Shown: one piece after another, positions 10,083 through 62,245 of the stretch
Position numbering within the stretch: position 1 is the stretch's first letter
Layout: each line of letters opens with the position of its first letter
DNA from: Sphaerotilus uruguayifluvii
GTDB lineage: Bacteria > Pseudomonadota > Gammaproteobacteria > Burkholderiales > Burkholderiaceae_C
Length of the DNA stretch: 64,000 bases
NCBI RefSeq assembly: GCF_013294065.1
Contig: NZ_JABSNM010000016.1
Span: 1 to 64,000 of the forward strand
Direction of reading: 5' to 3'
Notes under the pieces: generated by a model
What the model saw: only the letters and a program-made list of their open reading frames with translations
Told to the model about the DNA's origin: nothing
Databases searched by the model: none
Program-made: the position numbers and the translations under genes

Positions 10083-10221
10083 ATTTTCGCTCACCTTGCG
10101 CCCCAGTGACCAGGGCTCCGATGGGTTGGACAACCTTCCGCGACACGGCTAGACCGGTTGGCGGATCGCGACCCGCCTTAGCTGTTGCCAGAGAAGGGGA
10201 CGGGAAGGACCTACAGAGTCA
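10083..10221 (-). promoter_or_regulatory. sucA 5' leader, candidate sucA-motif RNA
   Basis: From the predicted start near 10222 the mRNA has about 140 untranslated bases ending in the sucA ribosome site (AAGGTGAG). A hairpin GGCGG/CCGCC at 10160-10177 encloses a TCGCGA core, and CAACC/GGTTG segments further down can pair. A conserved cis-regulatory 'sucA' RNA motif is known upstream of sucA in Burkholderiales, and this leader lies in the right place. I could not verify the consensus by eye. Confidence 0.35.
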
Positions 10222-13694: not shown

Positions 13695-15236
13695 TCAGCC
13701 CTGTGCCGCGACCCGCTCGGCCTTGCTGTGGAGCTTGTTCAGCGCCGACAGATAGGCCTTGGCCGAGGCGACGACGATGTCGGGATCCGCGCCGACCCCA
13801 TTGACGACGCGGCCGCCATGTTGAAGCCGAACAGTGACTTCGCCCTGCGACTCGGTGCTGCCGGACGTGATGGCGTTCACGGAATACAGCAGCAGTTCAG
13901 CTCCGGTCTCCAGCTTCGACTCGATCGCCTTCAGCGTCGCATCGACCGGACCGTTGCCCTGCGCCACCGCGCGGTGCTCGATCTGGCCGGCGGCGAAGGT
14001 CACCCGCGCGCCCGGACGCTCGCCGGTCTCGGAGTGCTGCGACAGCGACAGCAGGCGATAGTGCTCGACCTCGGCGCTGACGCTCTCGTCGCCGACCAGC
14101 GCGATGATGTCCTCGTCGAAGATCTCGCTCTTGCGGTCGGCCAGGTCCTTGAACTTGACGAAGGCGGCGTTGAGCTCGGACTCGGACTCGAGCTCGACGC
14201 CGAGGTCCTGCAGGCGCTGCTTGAAGGCGTTGCGGCCCGAGAGCTTGCCCAGCACGATCTTGTTGGCGCTCCAGCCCACGTCCTCGGCGCGCATGATCTC
14301 GTAGGTGTCGCGCGCCTTGAGCACGCCGTCCTGGTGGATGCCCGAGGCATGCGCGAAGGCGTTGGCGCCCACCACCGCCTTGTTCGGCTGCACCACGAAG
14401 CCGGTGGTCTGCGCCACCATGCGCGAGGCCGGCACGATCTGCGAGGTGTCGATGCCCAGGTCGAGGTTGAAGTAGTCGCGGCGGGTCTTGACCGCCATCA
14501 CCACCTCTTCGAGCGAGCAGTTGCCCGCGCGCTCGCCCAGGCCGTTGATGGTGCATTCCACCTGGCGCGCGCCGCCGATCTTCACGCCGGCCAGCGAGTT
14601 GGCCACCGCCATCCCCAGGTCGTTGTGGCAGTGCACCGACCAGATCGCCTTGTCGGAGTTCGGGATGCGCTCGCGCAGCGTGCGGATGAAGTTGCCGTAG
14701 AGCTCGGGAATCGCGTAGCCGACGGTGTCGGGAATGTTCAGCGTCGTGGCGCCCTCGTCGATCACGGCCTCGAGCACGCGGCACAGGAAGTCGACGTCCG
14801 AACGGTAGCCGTCCTCGGGCGAGAACTCGATGTCGGCGCACAGATTGCGCGCGAAGCGCACCGACAGCCGCGCCTGCTCGAGCACCTGCTCGGGCGTCAT
14901 GCGCAGCTTCTTCTCCATGTGCAGCGCGCTGGTGGCGATGAAGGTGTGGATGCGGGCGCGGTTGGCGCCGCGCAGCGCCTCGGCCGCACGCGAGATGTCG
15001 CGGTCGTTGGCACGCGCCAGCGAGCAGACGGTGGAGTCCTTGATCACGTCGGCGATGGCCTTGACCGCCTCGAAGTCGCCATTCGACGACGCGGCGAAGC
15101 CGGCCTCGATGACATCGACCTTCAGGCGCTCGAGCTGGCGCGCGATGCGCAGCTTCTCGTCGCGCGTCATCGAGGCGCCGGGCGACTGCTCGCCGTCGCG
15201 CAAGGTGGTGTCGAAAATGATCAGCTTGTCACTCAT
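13695..15236 (-). CDS. leuA: 2-isopropylmalate synthase
   Basis: First committed enzyme of leucine synthesis: condenses acetyl-CoA with 2-oxoisovalerate. It has 513 residues from the ATG at 15236, which follows GGAG by about seven bases; the open frame upstream belongs to the leader RNA. The N-terminal HMGL-like TIM barrel carries [13 protein letters not shown] (metal-binding Asp) and the metal-binding HxH region in [13 protein letters not shown]. The C-terminal leucine-sensing dimer domain starts near residue 390 and contains the allosteric region around [22 protein letters not shown]. Transcription is preceded by a leader peptide and an intrinsic terminator, so it is controlled by leucine supply as well as by feedback. 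pssA lies upstream on the same strand. Confidence 0.97.
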
Positions 15237-15310
15237 GGTCGTCTCCAAGGAGGGTGGGTACACCGACGCTGCTCTGGGATCCCGGGTGGATGACCGGGCG
15301 ACAAAAGAGA

Positions 15311-15341
15311 ACGGCCCGCAGCGTGGTGCCATGCGGGCCGT
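15311..15341 (-). terminator. leuA transcription attenuator
   Basis: A perfect 10-bp stem (minus strand ACGGCCCGCA / TGCGGGCCGT, 11-base loop) followed directly by TCTCTTTT. It lies between the leader peptide gene and leuA, 75 bases before the leuA ATG. This is a classic intrinsic terminator. A CGGGC segment within the last codons of the leader peptide could pair with the 5' arm as an antiterminator; that pairing is inference. Confidence 0.85.
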
Positions 15342-15382
15342 CGATCCAGAAAGGGGGTACAGGAATGTACAGGTGTGACTGG

Positions 15383-15442
15383 TCAGCGCGCCCGGGGCAC
15401 TTCGATTAGAAGCAGTGCTAGGGATTGAACGCCGAAAGTCAT
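15383..15442 (-). CDS. leuL: leuA leader peptide
   Basis: A 19-codon open frame encoding [19 protein letters not shown]. Four leucines fall within five codons (L-A-L-L-L), read by CTA, CTG, CTT and CTA. CTA and CTT are rare in such a GC-rich genome, so stalling on scarce Leu-tRNA is plausible. The stop codon lies about 40 bases before the intrinsic terminator in front of leuA. The start codon is six bases after a TATAGT -10 element, with no room for a ribosome site, so this would be a leaderless mRNA. The arrangement fits transcription attenuation as known for leu operons in enterobacteria: stalled ribosomes allow antitermination and leuA expression. It was too short for routine ORF calling, and I found it by translating the leader. 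Confidence 0.85.
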
Positions 15443-15448
15443 GCGGCC

Positions 15449-15457
15449 ACTATAGCA
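15449..15457 (-). promoter_or_regulatory. leuL-leuA extended -10 promoter element
   Basis: Minus strand TGC TATAGT, an extended -10. The predicted start at 15442 coincides with the A of the leuL ATG. It lies in the gap just after the pssA stop (15462). No -35 match is visible. Confidence 0.65.
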
Positions 15458-15461
15458 CGCC

Positions 15462-16304
15462 TCAGCGGTGCAGGCCGCGCTCGTCGGGCTCGTCGGTCGA
15501 GGTGGCGATGACGCTGACCGGGCGGCCGCGCGACTTGCGCACCCCGTACACCACATAGCCCGACAGGCCGTAGACGACGAAGACGCCGAACAGCACCAGC
15601 GGCGGGTGATAGGTGATCACCGCGATGCCCAGCGCGATCGCCACGATCACGATGAAGGGCACGGTGCGCTTGAAGTTGACGTCCTTGAAGCTGTAGAAGG
15701 GCACGTTGGTGACCATCGTCAGCCCGGCGTAGAGCGTGGTGGCGAAGGCCAGCCAGATCAGCCATTCGATGTCGCGCACGCCCCGGAAGCCCATGTCGTC
15801 CATCACCCAGATCAGGCCGGTGACCAGCGCGGCCGCGGCCGGGCTCGGCAGGCCCTGGAAGTAGCGCTTGTCGACCACGCCGATGTTGGTGTTGAAGCGC
15901 GCCAGGCGCAGCGCGGCGCCCGAGCAGTAGACGAAGGCGGCGATCCAGCCGAGCTTGCCCAGGCCCTTGAGCGCCCACTCGTACATGATCAGCGCCGGCG
16001 CCGCGCCGAAGGAGACCATGTCCGACAGGCTGTCCATCTGCTCGCCGAAGGCGCTGGTGGTGTTGGTCATGCGTGCGACGCGACCGTCCAGGCTGTCGAG
16101 CACCATCGCGCAGAACACGCCGATCGCGGCCTGGTCGAAGCGGCCGTTCATCGCCATCACGATGGCGTAGAAGCCGCCGAACAGCGCCGCCAGCGTGAAC
16201 AGGTTCGGCAGGATGTAGATGCCCTTGCGCCTCGGACGCAGCGGCGCCGGCTCGTCCAGATCGTCGTCGAGGTCGCCCCGATCGGGGGTGGTGTTTTGGT
16301 TCAT
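15462..16304 (-). CDS. pssA: CDP-diacylglycerol--serine O-phosphatidyltransferase
   Basis: Inner-membrane enzyme making phosphatidylserine, the precursor of phosphatidylethanolamine. The CDP-alcohol phosphotransferase motif is clear: DGRVARMTNTTSAFGEQMDSLSD supplies D-G-x2-A-R-x8-G-x3-D-x3-D, preceded by LDSL. About 280 residues with six to eight hydrophobic segments; the N-terminus is acidic and Pro/Arg-rich before the first segment (YILPNLFTLAALFGG). This is the type II, membrane-embedded PssA, unlike the soluble E. coli enzyme. The ATG at 16304 was chosen over an upstream start 48 bases earlier because it follows a GATAAT hexamer by six bases. leuA follows downstream behind its own promoter. 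Confidence 0.93.
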   Translation of the reverse strand: MNQNTTPDRGDLDDDLDEPAPLRPRRKGIYILPNLFTLAALFGGFYAIVMAMNGRFDQAAIGVFCAMVLDSLDGRVARMTNTTSAFGEQMDSLSDMVSFGAAPALIMYEWALKGLGKLGWIAAFVYCSGAALRLARFNTNIGVVDKRYFQGLPSPAAAALVTGLIWVMDDMGFRGVRDIEWLIWLAFATTLYAGLTMVTNVPFYSFKDVNFKRTVPFIVIVAIALGIAVITYHPPLVLFGVFVVYGLSGYVVYGVRKSRGRPVSVIATSTDEPDERGLHR

Positions 16305-62095: not shown

Positions 62096-62121
62096 GCGCG
62101 TGCGCTTCCTGTAAACTCGCC

Positions 62122-62245
62122 CGACCACGCAACTGGCGTTCAAGGCCTCGATCGGGGCCGAGGTGGGCAACCACCGGGGAGCGTGGTCGCCGCAGGCGCA
62201 TCGGCTTGCGGCGGTTTCTTGCCGTGCGCCTGGGCAGCCCGTGCC
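62122..62245 (+). ncRNA. ZTP (pfl) riboswitch upstream of glyA
   Basis: The RNA begins with a perfect 9-bp P1 stem, CGACCACGC (62122-62130) with GCGTGGTCG (62181-62189). Inside are the conserved CTGGCG (62133-62138) and GTGGGCAACCACCGGGGAG (62163-62181). A linker hairpin follows (62190-62211), then the 3' conserved element CGCCTGGGCA (62227-62236), which forms the pseudoknot. This matches the pfl motif that binds ZTP/ZMP and signals 10-formyl-tetrahydrofolate shortage; glyA is a known downstream gene in proteobacteria. A TAAACT hexamer at 62112-62117 is the likely -10. About 58 bases separate the aptamer from the ATG, with no obvious terminator, so control may be at translation. Confidence 0.88.

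Follow-up and report, generated by a model that had tools for sequence, protein, structure and literature searches.

Ribosome-mediated attenuation is usually taught with a leader peptide whose translation is driven by a Shine-Dalgarno (SD) sequence, and the leu leaders of enteric bacteria have an untranslated 5' part with an SD. The attenuators of proteobacteria were reportedly treated by Vitreschak et al. in 2004. In E. coli, a leu leader peptide of 28 amino acids with 4 Leu residues is involved in the attenuation of leuABCD (PMC6123439). Campylobacter jejuni carries LeuL, a leader peptide with rare Leu codons located before leuABCD, and LeuL-like peptides in its relatives were predicted from their location and a ribosome binding site (PMC3847290), a leaderless start not being part of the description in the accessible sections of that paper. 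The LEU element of Actinobacteria places a Leu-rich leader frame before leuA (PMC1262725). Leaderless leader peptides, leucine ones included, are established. The leucine leader peptides LeuL1 and LeuL2 of Streptomyces lividans are reported to be transcribed leaderless upstream of leuA and leuS, LeuL2 being followed by a hairpin and uridines, and LeuL1, by context the leuA leader, being without a typical terminator (PMC8079986). In Sinorhizobium meliloti, transcription of the trpL attenuator starts with the leader ATG (PMC7298713), the start site of the Corynebacterium diphtheriae ilvB leader lies at the leader start (PMC5784534), and a title cited in the reference list of PMC4046766 reports leader formation without a ribosome binding site in C. 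glutamicum. The leaderless leader that the initial annotation of the present locus considered unusual is thus less so, such leaders having been reported for the leucine peptides of S. lividans and for S. meliloti trpL.

The element analyzed here lies before leuA in the window, a 64-kb stretch of Sphaerotilus uruguayifluvii DNA that was analyzed as a whole. It resembles the leu attenuators of E. coli and Salmonella in having Leu codons in a leader peptide but differs from them in its shorter frame (19 codons), in the absence of an SD and in a start codon placed at the promoter. Compared with S. lividans LeuL1 and LeuL2, it belongs to another phylum, encodes other peptides and provides the leuA element with a terminator. 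As with S. meliloti trpL, the host is a proteobacterium and the transcript is predicted to begin at the leader ATG, although the amino acid is leucine here and tryptophan there, and trans-acting roles have been reported for trpL. The Corynebacterium leaders precede ilvB, and in Actinobacteria, whereas the gene concerned here is leuA. For the actinobacterial LEU element, base pairing between the Leu run and the leuA SD, in a pseudoknot or an alternative hairpin, has been described (PMC1262725), in contrast to the terminator and predicted antiterminator of the present locus. No description of this element for its order was found in the open-access papers searched.

The whole element is carried by the minus strand of the window (Table 1), where an extended -10 is followed by a leader frame with a run of Leu codons, by an intrinsic terminator and then by leuA. 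Re-reading the sequence confirmed the anatomy proposed in the initial annotation, i.e. an extended -10, six bases (read here as GGCCGC), a 19-codon Leu-rich frame, a 10-bp hairpin and leuA; the gaps of about 40 bases between the leader stop and the hairpin and of 75 bases between the hairpin and leuA given there were measured as 41 and 74 bases, respectively. Four of five consecutive leader codons specify Leu (CTA8, CTG10, CTT11 and CTA12). The leuA gene has an SD of its own (GGAG, 15246-15243). The stop codon of pssA, the upstream gene on the same strand, is separated by 4 nt from the TGC of the extended -10.

Table 1. Features of the leuA leader locus in the window
Feature	Position	Strand	Basis or detail
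leuA, 2-isopropylmalate synthase	13695..15236	-	TIGR00973 and NF002087 above cut-off; ATG 15236-15234
T-rich tail TCTCTTTT	15303..15310	-	read in sequence
Intrinsic terminator hairpin, perfect 10-bp GC stem ACGGCCCGCA/TGCGGGCCGT	15311..15341	-	read in sequence; fold; compensatory pairs in family; arms ACGGCCCGCA 15341-15332 and TGCGGGCCGT 15320-15311, loop 11 nt
Strand 3, CTGGATCGACGGCCCG, 3' half of predicted antiterminator	15334..15349	-	fold; partner exchange
Strand 2, CGGGCGCGCTGACCAG, 5' half of predicted antiterminator	15379..15394	-	fold from 15400 on; partner exchange
Leader frame, 19 codons + TGA	15383..15442	-	ATG 15442-15440, stop TGA 15385-15383
Putative regulatory Leu codons CTA-GCA-CTG-CTT-CTA (codons 8-12)	15407..15421	-	CTA/CTT rare in neighbouring genes
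Extended -10 promoter element TGC-TATAGT	15449..15457	-	read in sequence; TAnnnT hexamer recurs in family matches
pssA, upstream gene	15462..16304	-	TIGR00473, 112.7 bits against a cut-off of 107; stop 15464-15462

A scan for consensus promoters and terminators reported neither at the leader locus, because its settings demand a -35 and reject loops longer than 8 nt. The window also contains genes that we take to be ilvC, ilvH and ilvB. As another frame lies between ilvC and pssA, ilvB, ilvH, ilvC and pssA were not regarded as a single ilvBHC-pssA operon, and inspection by eye revealed no leader before ilvB.

The initial annotation had made its proposal depend on the conservation of the Leu codons and the terminator in close relatives. 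LeuA was found in all 13 genomes of the genus, and 11 of the loci were fully readable (the G009 contig breaks off within the element, and leuA is incomplete in G011). Each of the 11 contains the -10, a Leu-rich frame of 19 to 23 codons and the terminator, and conservation of the Leu codons and terminator extends across the family, as shown below. The start codon lies 6 nt past the -10 in nine of them (6 ATG, 3 GTG) and 9 nt past it in the other two. The leader directly precedes leuA in six congeneric genomes, and in six others (L019, L020, L021, L022, L028 and L030) a second LeuA homologue is located between the attenuator and leuA, G009, seen only in part, being one of the latter; both counts refer to the 12 genomes with a complete leuA. 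The intervening homologue of L019, the single one tested, is a 2-isopropylmalate synthase of the TIGR00970 type. In addition, contig C9 of genome G000 (L029) carries a separate leuA2 of the TIGR00970 type with a promoter-like TTGACA/TACATT pair, and a Leu-containing frame, MSPRRTLSLNLGLTLGRDLLVRAAPPFAGR, lies 6 nt past the TACATT, upstream of position 1402; the other 12 congeneric genomes contain nothing that matches this frame.

A covariance model built from the 11 congeneric loci was then run on 150 genomes drawn from the family. Matches at E values up to 0.01 were obtained in 123 of them, and the full-length element was present at 120 loci in 119 genomes, which leaves 31 without a full-length match, partial matches being left out of the counts. 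One genome (G056) contains two full-length copies, L136 and L138. A plasmid collection gave no match. All 120 full-length loci have a leuA-type (69) or leuA2-type (51) match within 700 nt downstream, the type being assigned by the better tblastn E-value. The leader peptides differ widely except for the Leu run and the last few codons, and 118 of the 119 leaders have at least 3 Leu codons. Of the 529 Leu codons in these leaders, 266 are CTA, a codon that accounts for none of the 530 in the first part of 38 downstream genes, those of the 120 loci whose start the script found. In agreement with the rare codons pointed out in the initial annotation (CTA twice and CTT once), CTA is absent from, and CTT accounts for only 2 of, the 163 Leu codons of leuA, pssA, ilvC, ilvH and ilvB of the window.

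The position of the leader start was analyzed in the same family sequences, bearing in mind that the covariance model that found them itself included the -10 and the start codon and that sequences from relatives are not independent of one another. The 119 automatic frame calls placed the start 6 nt from the -10 in 39 cases, 7 nt in 51, 8 nt in 16, 9 nt in 8 and at another distance in 5; the calls for G006, L126 and L135 are wrong and that for L116 failed, and the wrong calls remain in these counts as well as in the Leu codon counts of the leaders given above. In a separate pattern check, which corrects G006 only (ATG at 6 nt), TAnnnT was found 6-8 nt upstream of 107 of the 119 called starts and not of the other 12. 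The same hexamer spacing was seen at none of 35 leuA/leuA2 starts and at 6 of 1476 ATGs located further downstream. In 107 of 119 leaders, a C or T precedes the start; a pyrimidine is preferred just before +1, and this bias is expected if the start codon is +1. Leaders of 36-48 codons occur in L116, L126 and L135, with TATATT, TACATT and TAGAGT, respectively, as hexamers, and their start is still 6 nt past the hexamer. A spacing that is nearly constant at 6-8 nt while the peptide diverges, and 6 nt even in these long leaders, is what a leaderless start predicts. An SD match at or below -5 kcal/mol was found before none of the 119 family leaders, as opposed to 28 of 35 gene starts; an SD-driven leader was set aside. 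The window locus, with its start codon 6 nt from the -10, i.e. at the usual distance from a -10 to the transcription start, and without an SD, has the sequence features of a leaderless mRNA, and the leader ATG probably sits at +1 of the transcript.

A second set was collected by LeuA protein similarity alone and is therefore independent of the RNA model. It comprises 80 records, from genera that include Ideonella, Piscinibacter, Methylibium, Rubrivivax, Rivibacter, Hydrogenophaga, Acidovorax, Limnohabitans and Polaromonas, and the 450 nt upstream of the gene were searched in each. A Leu-rich frame past a TAnnnT was called in 56 of the 80 (two calls, L216 and L253, being doubtful), at 6 nt in 30, 7 nt in 24 and 8 nt in 2, and the terminator pattern followed in 55 of these 56; in the controls, it turned up in 6 of 1600 shuffles and in none of 80 leuA-internal stretches. 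Of the 24 records without a frame call, 17, including the two closest records (Ideonella L202 and Piscinibacter L203), carry a leuA2-type gene immediately upstream of leuA, so that their leader, if any, would lie beyond the 450 nt searched. The other 7 have no such gene, and two of them, L221 and L255, are cut by contig ends.

Outside the family, a second covariance model, the strict filters of which lose weak matches, matched 16 of 399 genomes of the order, only five of them from outside the family and all five belonging to a single other family (f10); in three f10 leaders that were read, the start lies 6-8 nt past the hexamer, whereas L171 has no leader. A LeuA-based search of 60 genomes of the order matched 51, and 28 loci from outside the family were scanned, 26 of which were usable (L180 and L183 were excluded, the latter having only 88 nt upstream). 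Upstream of leuA, 16 of these 26 loci, representing 15 families, carry a Leu-rich frame whose start codon lies 6-9 nt past a TAnnnT, whereas 0.42 are expected in shuffles of all 28. A terminator-like hairpin was recognized in 3 of 18 such loci examined, by a looser criterion that 118 of 119 family leaders satisfy. A frame adjacent to the -10 in 16 of 26 loci, with a terminator in only 3 of 18, indicates that such a frame is widespread and that the output stage varies. Two further features were noticed: in L177-L200 the 3' end of the Leu-rich frame is often a CTGCTGCTGCGC...GCGC stretch with LLLRPAR-like codons, and by eye a C-rich tract follows the leader stop in many loci from outside the family.

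The distribution of the frame raises the question of whether the leaderless start could be the functional core of a leucine sensor common to the order. An ancestral leaderless Leu-rich frame would then have been retained at the promoter of leuA or of its operon in many families while the output stage was exchanged, with an intrinsic terminator in the family of the window and in part of f10 and no recognizable terminator in most of the others examined, whose output may, as a guess, be translational or of the Rho type. As translation without an SD would be open only to RNAs whose first bases are the AUG, the response to leucine would be confined to RNAs from the element's own promoter, and read-through from pssA and the genes before it would always be terminated. 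We put this reading forward tentatively, as one that we would doubt rather than adopt. If such exchange occurred, comparing relatives that have the terminator with those that lack it could reveal how an output is replaced while the sensor of an attenuator stays.

The same data bear on whether the leader could belong to a leu attenuator without a leaderless start, which would be transcribed from an upstream promoter or by read-through from pssA and reached by re-initiation after the pssA stop. The leader ATG is only 19 nt from the end of pssA on the same strand, as such coupling would call for, and the absence of a -35 match upstream of the leader -10 would suit a transcription start farther away. 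However, re-initiation is at odds with the lack of an SD before every one of the 119 family leaders, and a -10 at nearly fixed spacing from starts whose leaders diverge in sequence and length, also found in 15 other families, would find no place in it. This explanation is judged unlikely.

The terminator and the alternative folds were examined in the same sequences. The predicted folding energy of the leader RNA (15442-15300) is -50.7 kcal/mol, whereas shuffled versions average -38.1 (z -3.54), and 0 of 200 shuffles fold as well. The 8 nt past the terminator stem contain a mean of 5.6 T in the 119 family sequences, and the pairs of the stem covary, with compensatory changes across the family: at one position the pair is CG in 84, AT in 25 and TA in 1 of 114 sequences, and at a second position TG in 48, TA in 31 and CG in 30 of 114.

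In the window sequence, strand 2, which overlaps the leader stop codon, is predicted to be able to pair with the 5' arm of the terminator, which strand 3 overlaps. Across the family, the antiterminator has an energy of -16.05 kcal/mol with its own partner and of -14.82 kcal/mol with exchanged partners (sd 0.16, 20 exchanges), although only 28 of 119 sequences, taken singly, beat shuffled strand 2 at the 5% level. The closing pair joins the nucleotide 5' of CGGG to that 3' of GCCCG. Among 98 scored sequences it is A-T in 58, G-C in 10 and G-T in 3, and the closing bases are unpaired in the other 27; 21 of the 119 were left out of this scoring, as CGGG or GCCCG is missing. The association of A or G on one side with T or C on the other gives a Fisher p of 5.6e-9, related sequences being counted as independent. 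These calculations predict that a mutually exclusive antiterminator is present. For a hairpin that would mask strand 2 (1:2), the gain in stability over shuffles is only slight (mean z -0.88; 22 of 119 below -2), and 64 of 99 sequences have the CGGG of strand 2 paired within the isolated leader frame. When a ribosome with assumed footprint edges of +14 and -20 was modelled on the first Leu codon, the CGGG was free in 99 of 99 sequences, and on the stop codon it was covered in 98 of 99. A modelled stall on the last Leu codon left strand 2 free in only 25 of 99, so that the earlier Leu codons would have to act.

Taken together, the comparisons strongly support a leucine attenuator, and the element is very likely a leucine-responsive, ribosome-mediated transcription attenuator of leuA whose sensing peptide would be translated from a leaderless start. 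The proposal of a leuA attenuator with a leaderless Leu-rich leader, first made in the initial annotation, is upheld at the level of sequence by the conservation of the Leu codons, of the terminator and of the -10 spacing. In the mechanism that we propose, RNA polymerase would initiate at the leader AUG or one or two bases away from it, and a ribosome would load directly on the 5' end of the transcript. When charged leucyl-tRNA is scarce, the ribosome would stall at CUA-GCA-CUG-CUU-CUA and leave strand 2 free to pair with strand 3; this pairing would tie up the 5' arm of the terminator and leuA would be transcribed. When leucine is plentiful, the ribosome would reach the stop codon inside strand 2 and cover it, allowing the terminator to form. 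If the leader is not translated at all, base pairs formed within its own frame may keep strand 2 masked, and the terminator would form as well.

The peptide or the short terminated RNA might also act in trans, beside or instead of attenuation. The terminated RNA would itself constitute a small mRNA, and peTrpL and rnTrpL of S. meliloti provide a precedent (PMC7298713). Against a role of this kind, the peptides differ widely apart from the Leu run and their few final codons, and these final codons coincide with strand 2, so that RNA pairing can explain their conservation. We consider trans action very improbable. Least credible of all is an ordinary terminator after pssA accompanied by a Leu-rich frame that arose by chance, with the leuA promoter further down, since, although a hairpin between two genes would also stop read-through, the Leu codons are kept and heavily biased to the otherwise rare CTA while the rest of the peptide changes, and the element accompanies leuA- or leuA2-type genes at every full-length locus.

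In many genera, leucine control would become part of the leuA annotation. A leaderless start for a key regulatory frame appears to be kept across a large part of one order, which would make these leaders a natural test bed for how initiation at a bare 5' AUG is timed relative to RNA polymerase. The element is without an Rfam match: in the window, the 4227 models of release 15 gave only two matches above the gathering threshold, both located elsewhere, and permissive scans of the loci of 17 relatives returned sub-threshold matches only. The best near-match, Thr_leader on the strand of the leader in L116, was rejected (31.5 bits against a threshold of 55). The two matches in the window are a sucA RNA motif at 10088-10171 on the minus strand (RF01070, 79.7 bits) and a ZMP/ZTP riboswitch at 62119-62242 on the plus strand (RF01750, 52.7 bits).
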